Assembly (NCBI RefSeq): GCF_003725535.1
Contig: NZ_RJSF01000040.1
Span: 427,407 to 491,406, forward strand
Direction: 5' to 3'
Length of the DNA: 64,000 bases
Origin: Nocardioides pocheonensis
GTDB taxonomy: Bacteria > Actinomycetota > Actinomycetes > Propionibacteriales > Nocardioidaceae
How positions within the stretch are numbered: the stretch's first letter is position 1; the number at the start of each line of letters is the position of its first letter. Shown here piece after piece: positions 54,596 to 61,294 of the stretch. Below the pieces are notes generated by a model. It was not told the origin of the DNA, made no database searches, and saw only the letters and a program-made list of their open reading frames with translations. The position numbers were made by a program, and so were the translations under genes.

Positions 54596-56953
54596 TCAGA
54601 CCCCTGCCAGCGCGGGCGCGTCGTGCGACGGCGCCGGCAGCTCCGCCGAGGCCGGGCCGGTCAACGGCTGGAACCGCCGCAGCCGCAGGCTGTTGGTGAC
54701 CACGAAGACCGACGAGAAGGCCATCGCGGCGCCGGCGAGCATCGGGTTGAGCAGTCCGGCAGCCGCCAGCGGCAGCGCGGCGACGTTGTAGGCGAACGCC
54801 CAGAAGAGGTTGCCCTTGATCGTCCGGAGCGTACGCCGGGACAGCCGGATCGCGTCCGCCGCCACCCGGAGATCCCCGCGGACGAGGGTGAGGTCGCTGG
54901 CCTCGATCGCGACATCGGTGCCGGTGCCCATCGAGAGCCCGAGGTCGGCCTGCGCCAACGCGGCCGCGTCGTTGACCCCGTCGCCGACCATCGCGACGAC
55001 GCGACCAGCAGCCTGCAGGCGCTTGACCACGTCGACCTTGTCGGCCGGGAGCACGTTCGCGATGACGGTTTCGGGGGAGACCTCGATGCCTACCTGCCGC
55101 GCGACGGCGTGCGCCGTGGGCTCGTTGTCCCCGGTCAGCAGCACCGGCAGCAGGCCGAGGCTGCGCAGCTGGGCGATCGCCTCGGCCGACGTCGGCTTGA
55201 CCGCGTCGGCGACGACGAGGACAGCACGCGCCCGTCCGTCCCAGCCGACCGCGATCGCGGTGGCTCCGTCGGACTGGGCGGCTGCGAAGGCGGCCTCGAG
55301 ATCCGGGCCCAACGGCTGCGACCACTCCTCGAGGAGGCGCGGCCGGCCCACGAGGACCGCGTGGCTGCGATCGGCCGCCACGACGACCCCCTGCACCCCG
55401 AGTCCCTCGACGTTCACGAAGTCCTCGACCGGCGGAAGGGCCCCGACCCGGCTCCGGGCCGCGTCCGCCACGGCCCGGGCGATCGGGTGTTCCGAGGCGT
55501 GCTCGAGCGCTCCGGCCAGCCGGAGGACCTGGTCCACGTCCTCACCCTCGCCGGCCACGACGTCCAGGAGTGTCATGTGACCGGTGGTGACGGTGCCGGT
55601 CTTGTCGAGCACGATCGTGTCGACCCGTCGCGTCGACTCGAGCACCTCAGGTCCCTTGATGAGGATGCCGAGCTGTGCGCCGCGGCCGGTACCCACCATC
55701 AGCGCCGTCGGCGTCGCCAGGCCGAGCGCGCAGGGGCACGCGATGATCAGGACCGCGACCGCCGCGGTGAAGGCGGCGGACAGGTCCTGGCCGGCGCCGA
55801 CCCAGAAGCCCAGGGTCGCTGCGGCGAGGCCGATCACGATCGGGACGAACACGCCCGAGATCCGGTCGGCGAGCCGCTGGACCTGCGCCTTCCCGTTCTG
55901 CGCGTCCTCGACCAGCCGGGCCATCTGCGCCAGCTGGGTGTCCGAACCCACCCTGGTGGCGCGCACCACGAGCCGACCACCGGCATTGACGGTGGCTCCG
56001 ACGACCGCGTCACCGACGCCCACCTCGACCGGCACCGACTCCCCGGTGAGCATCGAGGCGTCGACGGCCGAGCTGCCCTCCTCGACGACACCGTCCGTGG
56101 CGATCTTCTCGCCCGGGCGTACGACGAACGCGTCGCCGACCGCGAGCTGGTCGGTGGGGATCCGCACCTCGACCTGCCCGTCGGGACTGCTCCGCAGCAC
56201 AGCCACGTCCTTGGCGCCCAGCTCGAGCAAGGCTCGCAGGGCCGCGCCCGCCCGCCGCTTGGAGCGGGCCTCGAAGTAGCGGCCGGCGAGGATGAACGTG
56301 GTGACGCCCGCGGCGGCCTCGAGGTAGATGTTCCCGGCGCCGTCGGTGCGGGCCACGGTGAGCTCGAACGCGTGCTTCATCCCCGGAGTGCCGGCGGTGC
56401 CCCAGAACAGGGCGTACACCGACCAGCCCAGAGCTGCCAGCGTGCCGAGCGACACCAGGGTGTCCATGGTCGAGGTGCCGTGCCGCAGGTTCGTCCACGC
56501 GGCCCGGTGGAACGGCCAGGCGCCCCACACCACGACCGGTGCTGCCAGCGTCAGCGAGAGCCACTGCCAGTAGGTGAACTGGAGGGCCGGCACCATCGCG
56601 AACGCGATGACCGGGACCGACAGCGCCGCCGATCCGAGCAGGCGCTGCCGCAGCGGGCGCACCGGATCATGCGCGTCCGTGTCGTCCTCGTCGTGGCCCT
56701 CTGCGTGGGCCGGCCGGGGGAGTGCGGCGCCGTACCCGGCCTGCTCGACGGTGTGGATCAGGTCGCCGGGCTCGACGCCGTCGGCGAACGTGACCTTCGC
56801 CTTCTCGGTGGCGTAGTTGACCGTCGCCGTGACCCCGTCGAGCTTGTTCAGCTTGCGCTCGATCCGGTTCGCGCAGGAGGCACAGGTCATCCCGCTGATC
56901 TCCAGCTCCACCTCCTGGGTGGTGACGCCCGGTGATCCGGTCGCGGAAGCCAT
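54596..56953 (-). CDS. copA: Copper-translocating P-type ATPase CopA
   Basis: The 785-aa P1B ATPase exports Cu(I). It has one N-terminal HMA domain (Cys24 and Cys27 in GMTCASC), a His-rich linker (about residues 82-97), eight membrane helices, the transport motif CPC (406-408), the phosphorylated Asp450 in DKTGT, the HP motif (489-490) and GDGVND. It is third in the minus-strand operon copZ - secreted protein - copA, which starts at a CsoR box. It begins at the ATG at 56951-56953 with AGGAGAA upstream. Confidence 0.96.
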
Positions 56954-56976: not shown

Positions 56977-57903
56977 TCAGTGGTTGACGTGGCCGTCGCC
57001 GGCCGGGGTCTTCGCGGAGGTGCCGGTGCCTGCTGCGGTGACCGTGAAGGCCGCGGTCCGGACGACGCCCTGGTGCTTGAAGTCGAGGTAGAGGTGGTAG
57101 CGCCCGCCGCTCGGCACGTCGGCGAAGAACGTCACGTCAGGCCCGGAGGCGGTCTTCCCGTCGCCCGGGGTGCCCTCGGGGTGGACGTGCAGGTAGGCGA
57201 GGTCGCCGTCGCGGAGCGCGACCAGGTGACCGTAGGCCGCCAGGTAGGGCTCGAGGTCGGTGACCGGCTTGCCGTCGCGGGACACCCGGAGGGTGAGCTT
57301 CGCGTCGCGGCCTGCGGTGAGATCGCCGGACAGCGTCACGGTGTAGCCGTCGACGGTGGCGGTCCTCACGTCGGTCGTCGCCGGCGGCGCGGGCTGGTAG
57401 CTGCCGGCCACCGAGAGATCGGTGCCCAGCGTGAGTGCGTCGGCCCCGGTGGCCTTGAAGTCGGCGAACAGACGCCACGCGCCCGGCGTCAGGTCGAGGT
57501 CGGTGGTCCAGGTGCCGTCCGCGTCCCTGACCGGGTGGACGTGCTGGAAGCCGCTGAAGTCGCGACGTACGGCGATGAGGTGGAGCTCCTTGTCGTGCTC
57601 GAGGTCGTACGCGCTGACGGGGGAGCCGTCGGGACCCTCGATCGTGAAGCTGAGTGGTACACCGGAGCCGGCCGGTGCGGACGTGGCCGCGAGCCGGAAG
57701 GTGTAGCCGTCCTGGGAGACCTGCAAGCCCTTCGGGAACGACGCCTCGGCGCCCATCGCCATGCCTTCGCCGCCGCCGGACATGTCCGCATGGCTCGCGG
57801 TGGTCGTCTCCAGCGGACCGACGACATGGCCGACGCCGAGTGCGCCGGCGAACGCCACCGCCAGGAGGCCCACGAACCCGAGCAGCTTGGTGGCAACGTT
57901 CAT
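56977..57903 (-). CDS. Secreted or membrane-anchored copper-island protein, His/Met-rich
   Basis: The 308-aa protein has an N-terminal membrane helix or signal anchor (residues 5-30), a Met/His-rich segment ([16 protein letters not shown], about 36-51), two similar beta-sandwich modules each with a HVHP motif (FQHVHPVRD near 120, YLHVHPEG near 242), and a His-containing end. The repeated HVHP and the Met cluster fit binding of copper outside the membrane. I know no named family with certainty; similar genes sit between copZ and copA in other actinobacteria. It overlaps copZ by 4 nt and precedes copA by 23 nt. Confidence 0.75.
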
Positions 57904-58106
57904 GCGAGCTGGTACCCGGCTTCCTCGACCGCGGCCCGGACGGCAGCCTCGTCGAGCGGCTCCGTGCTGGTGACGGTGACCTGTCCGGTCTCGAGGACGA
58001 CGTCGACGCCCTCAACGCCCGGCACCTCCTGGACCTCCTCGGTCACCGACGCGACGCAGTGGCCGCACGTCATCCCCGTCACGGTGTAGGTCTGCTCAAC
58101 GCTCAT
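57900..58106 (-). CDS. copZ: CopZ copper chaperone
   Basis: The 68-aa HMA-domain protein has the metal motif GMTCGHC (Cys14 and Cys17). It would carry Cu(I) to CopA and to CsoR. It is the first gene of the copper operon, 39 nt after a CsoR box, and its last bases overlap the secreted protein gene. Confidence 0.93.
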   Translation of the reverse strand: MSVEQTYTVTGMTCGHCVASVTEEVQEVPGVEGVDVVLETGQVTVTSTEPLDEAAVRAAVEEAGYQLA

Positions 58107-58144
58107 CGGTAGGCCTTCCTTTCACGGATCGCTTTCCATGAATA

Positions 58145-58159
58145 TACCCCGGGAGGGTA
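58145..58159. promoter_or_regulatory. CsoR operator 1 (copZ promoter)
   Basis: TACCC-CGGGA-GGGTA, a 5+5+5 inverted repeat 39 nt before the copZ start. The same form occurs at three other promoters of the island. Confidence 0.85.
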
Positions 58160-58191
58160 CTTTGATCAACCTGTCGAAGAACAACAATGAA

Positions 58192-58206
58192 TACCCGTAT
58201 GGGGTA
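58192..58206. promoter_or_regulatory. CsoR operator 2 (csoR promoter)
   Basis: TACCC-GTATG-GGGTA, 44 nt before the csoR start and 47 nt from operator 1. This means CsoR can repress both divergent units from adjacent sites. Confidence 0.85.
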
Positions 58207-58249
58207 CACTGACCGCAGATCAGCAGGCTCGACGCCCGGGAGACACGAC

Positions 58250-58552
58250 ATGTCCGAGACCGTTCACCACCAGCACGGCTACATCCACCGCAAGGACGAC
58301 TACCTCCGGCGCCTCAAGCGCATCGAGGGGCAGGCGCGAGGGCTGCAGCGGATGGTCGAGGAGGAGAAGTACTGCATCGACATCCTCACGCAGATCTCGG
58401 CGATCACCAAGGCGCTGCAATCGGTCGGCCTCGGCCTGCTCGACGAGCACCTGGGCCACTGCGTGGTGGACGCGGCCGCGACCGGAGGGCGCGAGGCCGA
58501 GATCAAGCTCAAGGAGGCCTCGGACGCCATCGCCCGGCTGGTGCGGTCCTAG
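58250..58552 (+). CDS. csoR: CsoR copper-sensing repressor
   Basis: The 100-aa DUF156 repressor has the Cu(I) ligands Cys42, His67 and Cys71 in the spacing of Mycobacterium CsoR (Cys36, His61, Cys65). The DNA-facing RLKRIEGQARGLQRMVEEE segment is present (in parts). Cu(I) binding releases the operator. The ATG at 58250 removes an unconserved 21-residue extension. The TAG stop lies in the CTAG at the left end of a MITE-like element, so the C-terminus may have been shortened by that insertion. Confidence 0.94.
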   Translation: MSETVHHQHGYIHRKDDYLRRLKRIEGQARGLQRMVEEEKYCIDILTQISAITKALQSVGLGLLDEHLGHCVVDAAATGGREAEIKLKEASDAIARLVRS

Positions 58553-58712
58553 GAGACTGCTGAAGAATCCTGCCTGCTGCGCGCAGCCCCGCACGCACGC
58601 TGGCTGCGTTCTCGTCGGTCAACGCGGCGCTGCCGCGCCTTCCCGCCTCGGCCTTGCCATCGCACGCACGGGACAGCGCTCGCGACGGCCGGATCCTTCG
58701 GCACCCTCCTAG
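58549..58712. mobile_element. MITE-like element with terminal inverted repeats and CTAG duplication
   Basis: CTAG occurs at both ends (58549-58552 and 58709-58712). Just inside, GAGACTGCTGAAGAATCC and the inverted GAGGGTGCCGAAGGATCC match in 14 of 18 positions. CGCACGCACG is repeated within. There is no transposase gene. A 4-bp CTAG target would suit an IS5-subgroup transposase acting in trans. A transcription terminator of unusual length is the alternative. Confidence 0.6.
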
Positions 58713-58843
58713 GACCTCAGCTCTGCGCGGAAGGATGCCGTGCCGAGGTCGCGGGTGACGCTCACGCTCCACCGCCTGCCGGCGCAGGCGCAAGCGCCGG
58801 CGAGGAGGCTGGTCGCCTGCCTCGCCAGCGCTCGCAGAGTCAT
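58709..58843 (-). pseudogene. Truncated 44-aa reading frame cut by the MITE-like element
   Basis: The ATG at 58841-58843 overlaps the CDGSH stop by 4 nt, as in a normal operon. The frame reads TLRALARQATSLLAG and then WSVSVTRDLGTA before a TAG (58709-58711) located in the CTAG at the end of the element. It looks like the first part of a longer gene of the HMA-CDGSH operon whose remainder was lost at the insertion. I do not recognise the original family. Confidence 0.5.
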
Positions 58844-59121
58844 GCAGCGCCCTCGTCCGCATCGCCGTCGAGGAGCTCCTCGTCGGCGCAGGCAGGCTGG
58901 TCGGCGGTCGCGAATCCGTTCCGCGTGTGGCTGGAGTCGCAGAAGGGCTGGTTCGCCGACCGTCCGCACCGGCACAGCAGCAGGATGCGCTGTCCCTCCA
59001 GGTCGTACTCCTGACCGTCGGGGTCGAGCAGCCTGAAGGTCCCCTTGACCTGGAGAGGTCCGTTGCGGACGGCCTTGACGGTGACCGGGCGCGACGGGGG
59101 CGGTGGTGGAGCGTCGCTCAT
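58840..59121 (-). CDS. CDGSH iron-sulfur domain protein
   Basis: The 93-aa protein has one CDGSH (MitoNEET-type) domain. Cys50, Cys52, Cys61 and His65 in LCRCGRSANQPFCDSSH fit the 2Fe-2S-binding 3Cys-1His motif, with Ser in place of the Gly of CDGSH. A proline-rich start and an acidic tail flank it. It lies between an HMA gene and a broken gene in a CsoR-box operon. Its role may be redox or cluster repair under copper stress, because copper damages iron-sulfur clusters. This link is inferred. Confidence 0.88.
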   Translation of the reverse strand: MSDAPPPPPSRPVTVKAVRNGPLQVKGTFRLLDPDGQEYDLEGQRILLLCRCGRSANQPFCDSSHTRNGFATADQPACADEELLDGDADEGAA

Positions 59122-59327
59122 GCCTCGTCGACGATCGAGTAGCCGACCTGGGCGACAGCGGCACGGATCGCGGCGTCGTCGGCGCTCCCGACGACTTCGA
59201 GGGTTCCCGTGGACACGTCGACGTCCACGTCCTCGACGCCGGCGACATCCGTCACGGCGTTGGTGACCTTGTTGACGCACCCGTTGCAGGTCATCCCGGC
59301 GACGGTGTAGGTGGCGGTGTTGCTCAT
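59118..59327 (-). CDS. HMA-domain metal-binding protein (second CopZ-like chaperone)
   Basis: The 69-aa HMA protein has GMTCNGC (Cys14 and Cys17). It is a second copper chaperone next to copZ, differing in the middle residues of the motif. It heads the HMA-CDGSH operon, 42 nt after a CsoR box, and overlaps the CDGSH gene by 4 nt. Its partner is unknown. Confidence 0.92.
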   Translation of the reverse strand: MSNTATYTVAGMTCNGCVNKVTNAVTDVAGVEDVDVDVSTGTLEVVGSADDAAIRAAVAQVGYSIVDEA

Positions 59328-59368
59328 GGATCGGTCTCCTCGTCTGGCATGAATGGGGATCCCAACAG

Positions 59369-59383
59369 TACCCCGGTAGGGTA
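59369..59383. promoter_or_regulatory. CsoR operator 3 (HMA-CDGSH promoter)
   Basis: TACCC-CGGTA-GGGTA, 42 nt before the HMA gene start on the minus strand, in the same arrangement as operator 1. Confidence 0.85.
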
Positions 59384-59425
59384 TGTGGTTGTCAACAACC
59401 TGCAGCGCCGACCACGTCGGCCGTG

Positions 59426-60001
59426 TCAGGGCCGGCGGGCATGGAAGCGCATCACGTGGTCCCGGTACGACGTGCGCACGGACACGTCCTCGAAACCGAC
59501 CGCCTCGAGCCCGTGCCACAGCTCGTCGACGGCGAGGATCCGGTGCGGCGACCGGTCCGCCCAGTGGATCAGCCGCGCGAACCGGGTGTCGGTGAAGTCG
59601 TACCCGACGAGGACACCGCCCGGACGCAGCACCCGGGCGGCCTCGGCGAGCGCAGCGGGCCACGCGATCACGTGGTGGAGCATCAGATGGCTGGTGACGA
59701 CGTCGAAGGCGCTGTCGCCGAAGGGGAGAGCCGTGACGTCGGCCTGCTCGACTGTGACGTCGGGCAGTCCGGACAGCCGGGCGCCGGCCGCGCGGACCAT
59801 GGCAGCGTCGAGGTCGGTGGCCGTCAGCCGGATCCCCGGATGCGTGCGCATCATGCCCTCCGCCATGGCGCCGCTCCCGGAACCCAGCTCCAGTACGTCA
59901 CCCCTCAGCGGCGTGCCGTCCAGCGCCCAGGGCAGCACCACGCCAGAGGCGAAGGCTCGCCACGGTGCGCTGCGGCAGAACACCTGCTCGGCTGTCGACA
60001 T
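59426..60001 (-). CDS. Class I SAM-dependent methyltransferase
   Basis: The 191-aa methyltransferase has the SAM loop VLELGSGSGAMAEGM, the acidic residue in TATDLDAAMV, and post-II motifs ADVTALPFGDSAFDVV and LRPGGVLVGYDF. It follows the DUF318 permease by 47 nt on the same strand and is probably co-transcribed from the CsoR-box promoter at 61280. Because permeases of that family can export methylated arsenic species, a metalloid or small-molecule methylation role is worth testing. The cysteines that define ArsM are not obvious here, so the substrate remains open. Confidence 0.85.
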   Translation of the reverse strand: MSTAEQVFCRSAPWRAFASGVVLPWALDGTPLRGDVLELGSGSGAMAEGMMRTHPGIRLTATDLDAAMVRAAGARLSGLPDVTVEQADVTALPFGDSAFDVVTSHLMLHHVIAWPAALAEAARVLRPGGVLVGYDFTDTRFARLIHWADRSPHRILAVDELWHGLEAVGFEDVSVRTSYRDHVMRFHARRP

Positions 60002-60048
60002 GATCGGCACGGATCTGTCCTCTCGTTGGTCGACCGGCCTCGCGCCGA

Positions 60049-61236
60049 TCAGTGATCGTGACCCTCGTGGTGGTGGGTGGAGGAGCCCGCGGACTCGGCA
60101 GGGCCGCCCATCATGCGCAGCATCGGGAGTCCACCGGTGCGCACGAACCGCACCACGAGCACGGCGGTGAGGACGAGGAAGCCGAGGTTCAGCCAGGTGG
60201 TGTAGTTCCACGAGAACGACGCCTCGACCACGGTCGCGCTGCGCTCGTCGGGCATCAGGCCGAGCGCGCCGAACAGGATCTCGATCACGTAGCCGGCGAC
60301 GACCATGGCGAGGTAGAAGATGCCGGTGATCCGCAGCGCAGCCTTCGTCCCGTAGTACTTCCGGTAGATCAGGATGATCGGCACGATGATCAGGTCCGCG
60401 AAGATGAAGCTGATCACTCCGCCGAAGCTGATCCCGCCGTTCCACAGCACCGCCGCCAGCGGCACGTTGCCGATCGAGCACACGAAGCTCACGGCGGCCA
60501 CGAGCGGGCCGATCAGCGGTCCCCACAGCTTGGCGGCAGTGGGGTCGCTCTGCAGGAAGAACGTCTGCAGCCAGCTGGTCGGGACCCACGCCGCGAACGC
60601 GCCCGCGATGAGCAGGCCGAGCACGATGTCGCGCAGCACCGATGCCCAGTCCATCACGTAGTAGTGCGAGATCGAGGTGAACCCGTCGCGCGACCACAGC
60701 CGCTGCCACAGCGTGCCGCCGCCGCTGACCGACATGTCCATCGCGGCGTGACCCTCCATCGAGCCGGCCAGGCCACGGTCGGCCTGCTCTCGCGCCGCTT
60801 CGAGGATGCGTCCGCGCATCCACAGCCGGAACAGCAGCGCGACGACCACGATCATGATCGGGCCGCCGAGGAATTCGGCCAGCGTGAACTGCCACCCCAT
60901 CAGCAGGGCCAGGATGATGCCCAGCTCGACCACGAGGTTCGTGGAGGCGATCTCGAAGGCCATGGCCGCGCTGAACGACGCTCCCTTGCGGAACAGCGAC
61001 CGTGCGAGCGCGACGGCCGCGTAGGAGCACGACGACGAGGCGGCGCCGAGGCCGGTGGCCCAGGCGAGGGACCGCGGCGAGTCGCCTGCGAGGAAGCGGG
61101 TCACCTGCTCGCGACGTACGACGGCCTGCACGACGCCCGACAGGAAGAACCCGAGCACCAGCGGCCAGAGGATCTCCCACCCCATCGCGCCCGCCATCCG
61201 GAGCGCGTCTCCGACCGACCCGAGAATGTCCGTCAT
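60049..61236 (-). CDS. DUF318/YraQ family permease with His-rich tail
   Basis: The 395-aa membrane protein has about eight to ten hydrophobic segments in two halves. It has the family motif ASSSCSYAAVALARSLFRKG near residue 50, a cytosolic loop of about 60 residues, and a C-terminal His-rich tail (THHHEGHDH). The DUF318 family includes ArsP, which exports trivalent organoarsenicals. The CsoR box 44 nt upstream suggests a copper-linked role. The ATG at 61234-61236 has GGAGG 8 nt upstream; another ATG is 6 nt earlier. The methyltransferase gene follows. Confidence 0.87.
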   Translation of the reverse strand: MTDILGSVGDALRMAGAMGWEILWPLVLGFFLSGVVQAVVRREQVTRFLAGDSPRSLAWATGLGAASSSCSYAAVALARSLFRKGASFSAAMAFEIASTNLVVELGIILALLMGWQFTLAEFLGGPIMIVVVALLFRLWMRGRILEAAREQADRGLAGSMEGHAAMDMSVSGGGTLWQRLWSRDGFTSISHYYVMDWASVLRDIVLGLLIAGAFAAWVPTSWLQTFFLQSDPTAAKLWGPLIGPLVAAVSFVCSIGNVPLAAVLWNGGISFGGVISFIFADLIIVPIILIYRKYYGTKAALRITGIFYLAMVVAGYVIEILFGALGLMPDERSATVVEASFSWNYTTWLNLGFLVLTAVLVVRFVRTGGLPMLRMMGGPAESAGSSTHHHEGHDH

Positions 61237-61279
61237 CGCCATGCCCTCCGAACCGTGGACGTCAGCACCCGCACGAGTG

Positions 61280-61294
61280 TACCCCCATGGGGTA
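61280..61294. promoter_or_regulatory. CsoR operator 4 (permease promoter)
   Basis: TACCC-CCATG-GGGTA, 44 nt before the DUF318 permease start on the minus strand. It is the same 5+5+5 form as the other three. Confidence 0.85.

Follow-up and report, generated by a model that had tools for sequence, protein, structure and literature searches.

Copper is a general antimicrobial stress. The copper regulons described for actinobacteria comprise, in the literature as far as available, CopZ/CopA export functions and a few extra proteins in mycobacteria. According to the available part of the source, the repressor CsoR of Streptomyces lividans binds type 2 sites, 5'-TAC-X9-GTA-3' around G-tracts, and the variants of the copZA1 probe have TACCCCCTAGGGGTA in common (PMC3902906). 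In Mycobacterium tuberculosis, the permease gene rv2963 is a target of the repressor RicR in the text available (PMC10961391, PMC10470581). Here, copies of the palindrome TACCC-N5-GGGTA were analysed in a stretch of 64,000 bases from Nocardioides pocheonensis, referred to below as the window, where they precede the units copZ-secP-copA, csoR, HMA-CDGSH, and permease-methyltransferase. A further copy precedes a gene for a DUF4396 membrane protein on another contig. From these analyses it appeared likely, with a probability of about 0.82, that the cluster and this fifth unit constitute a copper-stress regulon under one CsoR/RicR-type repressor, a regulon of an established type, two of whose members are poorly documented.

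Operator sites and the candidate repressor

A preliminary description of this DNA had named four exact operator copies in the window, each 39-44 nt before the first gene of a transcription unit, and had noted no others. All four were recovered at these places (Table 1), no further exact copy was present in the window, and the gene order of the four units proved to be as described. A single-base model predicts 0.054 exact sites for a sequence of this length, and 100 dinucleotide shuffles of the window gave a mean of 0.00. Chance was therefore rejected as the source of four sites within 3.15 kb. Distances to the start codons, calculated as coordinate differences, are 39 nt for copZ, 44 nt for csoR, and 42 nt for the HMA gene; the permease, with 38 nt, falls one base outside the range given for all four. 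The genome-wide count of exact matches that had been proposed as a check yielded five in 4.92 Mb, the four of the window and the one on another contig, versus two for the control, the reversed pattern. When up to one mismatch was tolerated, 34 sites were obtained versus 45 for the control, indicating no enrichment. Therefore, only the exact motif was considered informative at the genome level, and degenerate operators were left out of genome-wide use.

All five sites satisfy the TAC-X9-GTA rule, and the fifth is the same 15-mer as the core of the S. lividans copZA1 probe, TACCCCCTAGGGGTAT, as given in the available text (PMC3902906). By sequence, the operators match the described type 2 class of CsoR operators, for which binding of CsoR and release by Cu(I) are predicted. 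The copZ operator is located within the 17-nt spacer of a sigma-70-like promoter, overlapping the -10 hexamer by 2 nt, and this was the sole promoter-like site in 3.7 kb scanned (shuffle mean 0.4). The fifth site lies inside the 17-nt spacer of TTGGTA-17-TATGAT. By eye, the GTA end of the operator runs into the hexamer TACACT at the csoR and permease sites and into TACTGT at the HMA site. From these placements, promoter occlusion is the likely mode of repression.

The CsoR protein of the window reached 102.7 bits with PF02583 (cut-off 22.8), and RicR is its closest NCBIfam model. By eye, it contains MVEEEKYCID and HLGHC, which provide the copper-ligand motif YC.D and H...C, the Cu(I) fingerprint of CsoR/RicR proteins in the available text of PMC4531530. 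Two proteins of the CsoR family were found in the genome, and only the one in the cluster has this fingerprint. The second gene (G000:C43:223947-224159; L011:4918-5184) is located shortly behind a thioredoxin-like frame, with about 95 kb between it and the closest exact site, and by eye its product has two Cys and no matching His. It is probably a CstR-like protein sensing persulfide.

A 33-nt inverted repeat (58542-58574 / 58687-58719; 82% complementary, 112 nt apart) begins within the final codons of csoR. Segments of this stretch match seven other places in the genome with 71-89% identity, and it may be a small element of mobile or terminator-like nature.

Genes near the operator in other genomes

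Exact sites were also counted in other genomes. Thirty genomes, including that of N. pocheonensis, contain 90 of them versus 28 of the control pattern, and the 29 relatives alone 85 versus 26. One site per relative was fetched for a survey of gene neighbours, a small sample of 29. Twenty of these sites are within 200 nt of a gene for CsoR (13), DUF4396 (4), or CopA (3), while nine have no query gene at that distance. Since four and three of the fetched sites, respectively, belong to DUF4396 and CopA, the former appears to be as regular a target as the latter, within the limits of this small sample.

DUF4396 matches were detected in 119 of 391 genomes of the order, that of N. pocheonensis included, and the best 29 loci besides its own were inspected. 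An exact site is present at -300 to +60 of the gene in 17 of the 29, and control windows gave 0 of 29; most of these sites are located between a few bases and 16 nt upstream of the chosen start (89 nt in L066). Eight of the other 12 genes follow copA in an arrangement of two or three exact sites, csoR, copZ, secP, copA, and DUF4396. Exact sites thus lead 25 of the 29 closest relatives, either directly (17) or at the head of an operon that ends with the gene (eight), and within this group DUF4396 appears to belong to the CsoR regulon almost throughout. An alignment of 28 rows, from which L043 and L052 were left out because their starts are unsure, revealed H28, C29, C33, E37, D92, E100, D103, N104, H152, H156, and H159 as invariant. 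The proteins possess an invariant HCLTGCAIGE-type motif, and their ends are often rich in His. Four long helices are predicted by AlphaFold (pLDDT 83.6, a fair value), and Foldseek found no match in the PDB at E <= 0.001 (best 0.99).

A literature search by name returned a sole mention of DUF4396, which in the available text is an unrelated listing at the margin of a metal island; judged from this name search, the family may be undescribed in copper control. The Streptomyces genes SCO1044, SCO3280, SCO4137, SCO6710, and SCO7265 have been predicted to be under CsoR (cited in the available part of PMC6414726), and this list may include DUF4396 or CDGSH genes. DUF4396 is the most useful lead of the regulon. 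The conserved sites supply a concrete context for it, as a probably copper-inducible membrane protein encoded in part together with csoR-copZ-secP-copA, and its function is therefore directly testable.

For the permease, the best 80 of at least 525 named loci were compared, 77 of which have 300 nt upstream. An exact site occurs at -300 to +60 in 32 of the 77, and 30 of these sites are at -41 to -80. Thirteen control windows of 69-80 loci each contained no site or one, four in total, and the reversed pattern was absent. The 32 loci are mostly from Mycobacterium, with others from Frondihabitans, Subtercola, Curtobacterium, Actinomadura, Streptacidiphilus, and Amycolatopsis; on a quick tree of the permeases, the site label needs 15 changes, at least eight of them across starred branches. 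Nine more of the 80 loci have a site 1.3-1.65 kb upstream. Gene order was read for two of these: two small frames separate the site from the permease in L110, and a small frame followed by a relative of secP in L163 from Streptomyces. In 19 aligned sequences, residues C72, C255, and H165 do not vary, and M162, M168, and M170 hardly vary.

Membership of the permease in the CsoR regulon is thus supported at the level of sequence and has a precedent. Since rv2963 already belongs to the RicR regulon of M. tuberculosis, the present link broadens a known one, extending the mycobacterial connection over several genera. We take rv2963 to be an ArsP_1 protein. The tie of the permease to copper control made in the preliminary description is supported, but it is not of a new kind. 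Literature searches gave no paper joining CsoR to DUF318 and only unrelated matches for DUF318 with copper. The Curtobacterium locus (L110:6672-7977) consists of an exact operator, a small membrane-like frame, and a frame with repeated HHE motifs, presumably DUF305-like, before the permease.

The methyltransferase gene begins 47 nt behind the permease gene on the same strand and has no exact site of its own. Its product scored far under the cut-offs of the BioC, UbiE, and ArsM models, and matches to arsenite methyltransferases are weak. Nine further matches (E <= 1e-20) were obtained in eight of the other 148 genomes of the family, and none of them is accompanied by the permease, a copper query gene, or an operator with up to one mismatch in flanks of up to 1.5 kb. 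Around the 80 permease loci, the sole methyltransferase match above 38% identity is 4.7 kb away (L124). A true working partnership with the permease, for example methylation of a metalloid or lipid exported under copper stress, would agree with the short distance and with the weak arsenite methyltransferase matches; it is improbable in view of the relatives, the permease surroundings, and the model scores. The tie to copper control claimed for this gene, with adjacency as its one argument, was not borne out, and with none of nine relatives in a copper context within the flanks covered, the methyltransferase was rejected as a copper gene. Most likely, it is a read-through passenger, transcribed with the permease and without a conserved copper role.

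The stop codon of the second HMA gene overlaps the CDGSH start by 4 nt. The CDGSH protein matches PF09360 and has the C-x-C...C...H ligands, with S in place of the G of CDGSH; presumably, its Fe-S cluster ligands are intact. Operator-like sites are located beside CDGSH genes in three of nine other surroundings. In genome G380, 77% identical counterparts of the HMA and CDGSH genes diverge around TACCCCCCTATGGTA, which has one mismatch. On a plasmid of Prescottella equi, csoR-HMA-secP-copA diverges from CDGSH-MFS, and the intergenic region contains one exact site, identical to the HMA site of the window, and another with one mismatch. In G287, two sites with one mismatch lead a reductase-like frame (by eye) and the CDGSH gene, and csoR is about 4 kb off. 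The one-mismatch sites in L185, L186, and L192 were accepted for their position only and constitute a weaker argument. Neither another copper query match nor a site with up to one mismatch was found in 19 kb around the CDGSH genes of G132, G615, G742, and G434, or in the plasmid stretches with CDGSH from Curtobacterium and Cupriavidus. The proposed copper link of HMA-CDGSH is moderately supported by the three further loci, while six of the nine surroundings speak against it.

A short frame resembling a small ferredoxin was noticed by eye behind CsoR sites and before CDGSH in L192:8480-8965 and L186:8240-9770. It is apparently broken off in L192, and a reductase-like frame comes next in L186. 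Literature searches for CDGSH with copper and CsoR returned only unrelated plant work, and those for CDGSH with copper resistance returned nothing. In the text available, the term 'copper' does not occur in a CDGSH structure paper, nor do 'CDGSH' or 'DUF4396' in a paper on metals in Frankia.

In the copZ unit, copZ and secP share 4 nt, and 23 nt separate secP from the start of copA. No Pfam or NCBIfam family was over its cut-off for secP, which keeps its position between copZ and copA in the eight csoR-copZ-secP-copA-DUF4396 operons and on the P. equi plasmid.

Table 1. Predicted features of the copper cluster in the window and of the fifth unit outside it
Feature	Position	Strand	Remarks
copA, heavy-metal P-type ATPase	54596..56953	-	TIGR01511 copper subfamily, 517 bits (cut-off 397)
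secP, exported-looking protein, 308 aa	56977..57903	-	between copZ and copA
copZ-like HMA copper chaperone	57900..58106	-	PF00403, E 8e-18; under NCBIfam CopZ cut-offs
Sigma-70-like promoter of copZ-secP-copA	58141..58169	-	TTGATC-17-TATATT
CsoR type 2 operator before copZ-secP-copA	58145..58159	-	exact match; in promoter spacer
CsoR type 2 operator before csoR	58192..58206	+	exact match
csoR/ricR-like copper-sensing repressor, 100 aa	58250..58552	+	PF02583; RicR model; Cys-His-Cys fingerprint
CDGSH-type [2Fe-2S] protein	58840..59121	-	PF09360, E 5e-18; cluster motif CRCG...PFCDSSH
Second HMA (CopZ-like) chaperone	59118..59327	-	PF00403, E 2e-16
CsoR type 2 operator before HMA-CDGSH	59369..59383	-	exact match; identical 15-mer on P. 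equi plasmid between csoR and CDGSH
Class I S-adenosylmethionine methyltransferase, behind permease	59426..60001	-	PF08241
ArsP_1/DUF318 permease, 397 aa	60049..61242	-	PF03773, 246.9 bits (cut-off 32.3)
CsoR type 2 operator before permease	61280..61294	-	exact match
DUF4396 membrane protein	L006:5647-6126	-	PF14342, 136.7 bits (cut-off 27); outside window
Fifth exact CsoR operator	G000:C43:129138-129152 (L006:6139-6153)		12 nt before DUF4396 gene

The proposed copper regulon and its alternatives

The proposal of one CsoR regulon, which the preliminary description had put forward, is well supported by sequence comparison, because the copper fingerprint is confined to the CsoR of the cluster, the operator is of a known type, and orthologous genes of other genera also have exact sites. 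Several results weigh against it. The single-base model predicts 4.2 exact sites in the genome, close to the five found; therefore, a single isolated site is weak and needs evidence from conservation, and chance may account for any one of them taken alone. The promoter scan gave no promoter-like match at the csoR, HMA, and permease sites. The repressor matches the whole RicR model NF052430 with 150.1 bits, below the cut-off of 175, and was therefore labelled CsoR/RicR-like and not RicR. Four of the 29 DUF4396 relatives have no site near the gene, even with two mismatches allowed. Among the 80 permease loci, 39 lack an exact site both at the gene and in the region 1.3-1.65 kb upstream, and the closest of the 80, that of Nocardioides phosphati (84%), has none. 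Eleven permease loci were taken from a search of the 391 genomes of the order, with second copies in G158 and G107 and matches below 37 bits left out, and ten of them have no site; the sole site is in L022, from the same genus. Two permeases without a site (L017 and L018) follow a frame that is ArsR-like by eye. Finally, 29 CDGSH relatives at the level of the order have no exact site within 1.5 kb. Taken with the three of nine surroundings that have sites, this suggests a CDGSH link that appears real but rare.

The permease loci without sites, the ArsR-like frames, and the six CDGSH surroundings without a copper gene could mean that CsoR truly controls only copZ-secP-copA, csoR, and DUF4396. 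The sites in front of HMA-CDGSH and the permease would then be chance matches or decayed copies, and these genes would answer other signals. This is unlikely. Sites at the permease start are far more frequent than in the control windows and appear repeatedly over the tree, in G380 a separate, independent pair of HMA and CDGSH genes is arranged around an operator-like site, and rv2963 is under RicR in M. tuberculosis in the sources as available.

Alternatively, the sites might serve a repressor from this family that senses persulfide, nickel, or another signal, so that the cluster would not be a copper regulon. CsoR, RcnR, FrmR, and CstR have a common fold. The members of this repressor family are listed in the abstract of PMC5016687, the CsoR of the window missed the RicR cut-off, and the genome encodes a second protein of the family. 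This alternative is very improbable: the CsoR of the window carries the copper fingerprint, its gene adjoins copZ-copA and has its own operator, the operator is of type 2 as reported in the available text on S. lividans, and the second family member is remote from any exact site and, by eye, without the His.

In the favoured reading as a copper regulon, CsoR would occupy the TACCC-N5-GGGTA promoter sites at low copper and block RNA polymerase, sitting between the -35 and -10 hexamers at copZ and DUF4396. Cu(I), bound by the Cys-His-Cys site, would release CsoR. Five units would then be expressed: copZ-secP-copA, csoR, HMA-CDGSH, the permease with or without the methyltransferase, and, on the other contig, DUF4396. 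The first of these would provide a chaperone, an exported protein, and an export ATPase, the permease may constitute a route for Cu(I) export or handling at the membrane, and DUF4396 may be a membrane protein handling Cu(I). Copper damages Fe-S clusters, and HMA-CDGSH might supply a chaperone and an iron-sulfur protein that buffer this damage. Observed here are the sites with their positions, the gene families, and the conservation of sites at orthologous genes; binding by CsoR, induction by copper, and the functions given to the additional members are predicted from sequence.

A more tentative proposal, to which we assign somewhat less than even odds, goes further. DUF4396 could be an undescribed core of actinobacterial copper defence, taking over Cu(I) at the membrane in concert with CopZ, secP, and CopA, and HMA-CDGSH could be a copper-induced pair, in which the chaperone protects or recharges the Fe-S protein, joining copper sensing to Fe-S repair. 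The locus offers a testable case in which copper sensing may reach iron-sulfur protection.

Comparison with known copper systems

The permease of the window resembles SO_0444-type Cu/Zn efflux permeases (NF033936) in a local match over its residues 28-362, but with 59.3 bits it is far under the equivalog cut-off of 300 and so is not a member of that group. The CsoR regulon of S. lividans, consisting of csoR, copZA1, and copZA2 in the available part of PMC3902906, has in common with the present one the type 2 operator, autoregulation of csoR, and control of copZ-copA, and the 15-mer core of its copZA1 operator recurs unchanged before DUF4396. The three operators studied there precede csoR and two copZA units; the predicted regulon of N. 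pocheonensis additionally covers the permease, HMA-CDGSH, and DUF4396. The RicR regulon of M. tuberculosis (mymT, lpqS, rv2963, socAB, mmcO, and ricR in the available text of PMC10961391 and PMC10470581) is alike in that one CsoR paralogue is placed over scattered units, including its own gene and a putative permease, rv2963. In contrast to that regulon, the repressor gene in N. pocheonensis is located with copZ-copA, and the predicted regulon includes CDGSH and DUF4396 units.

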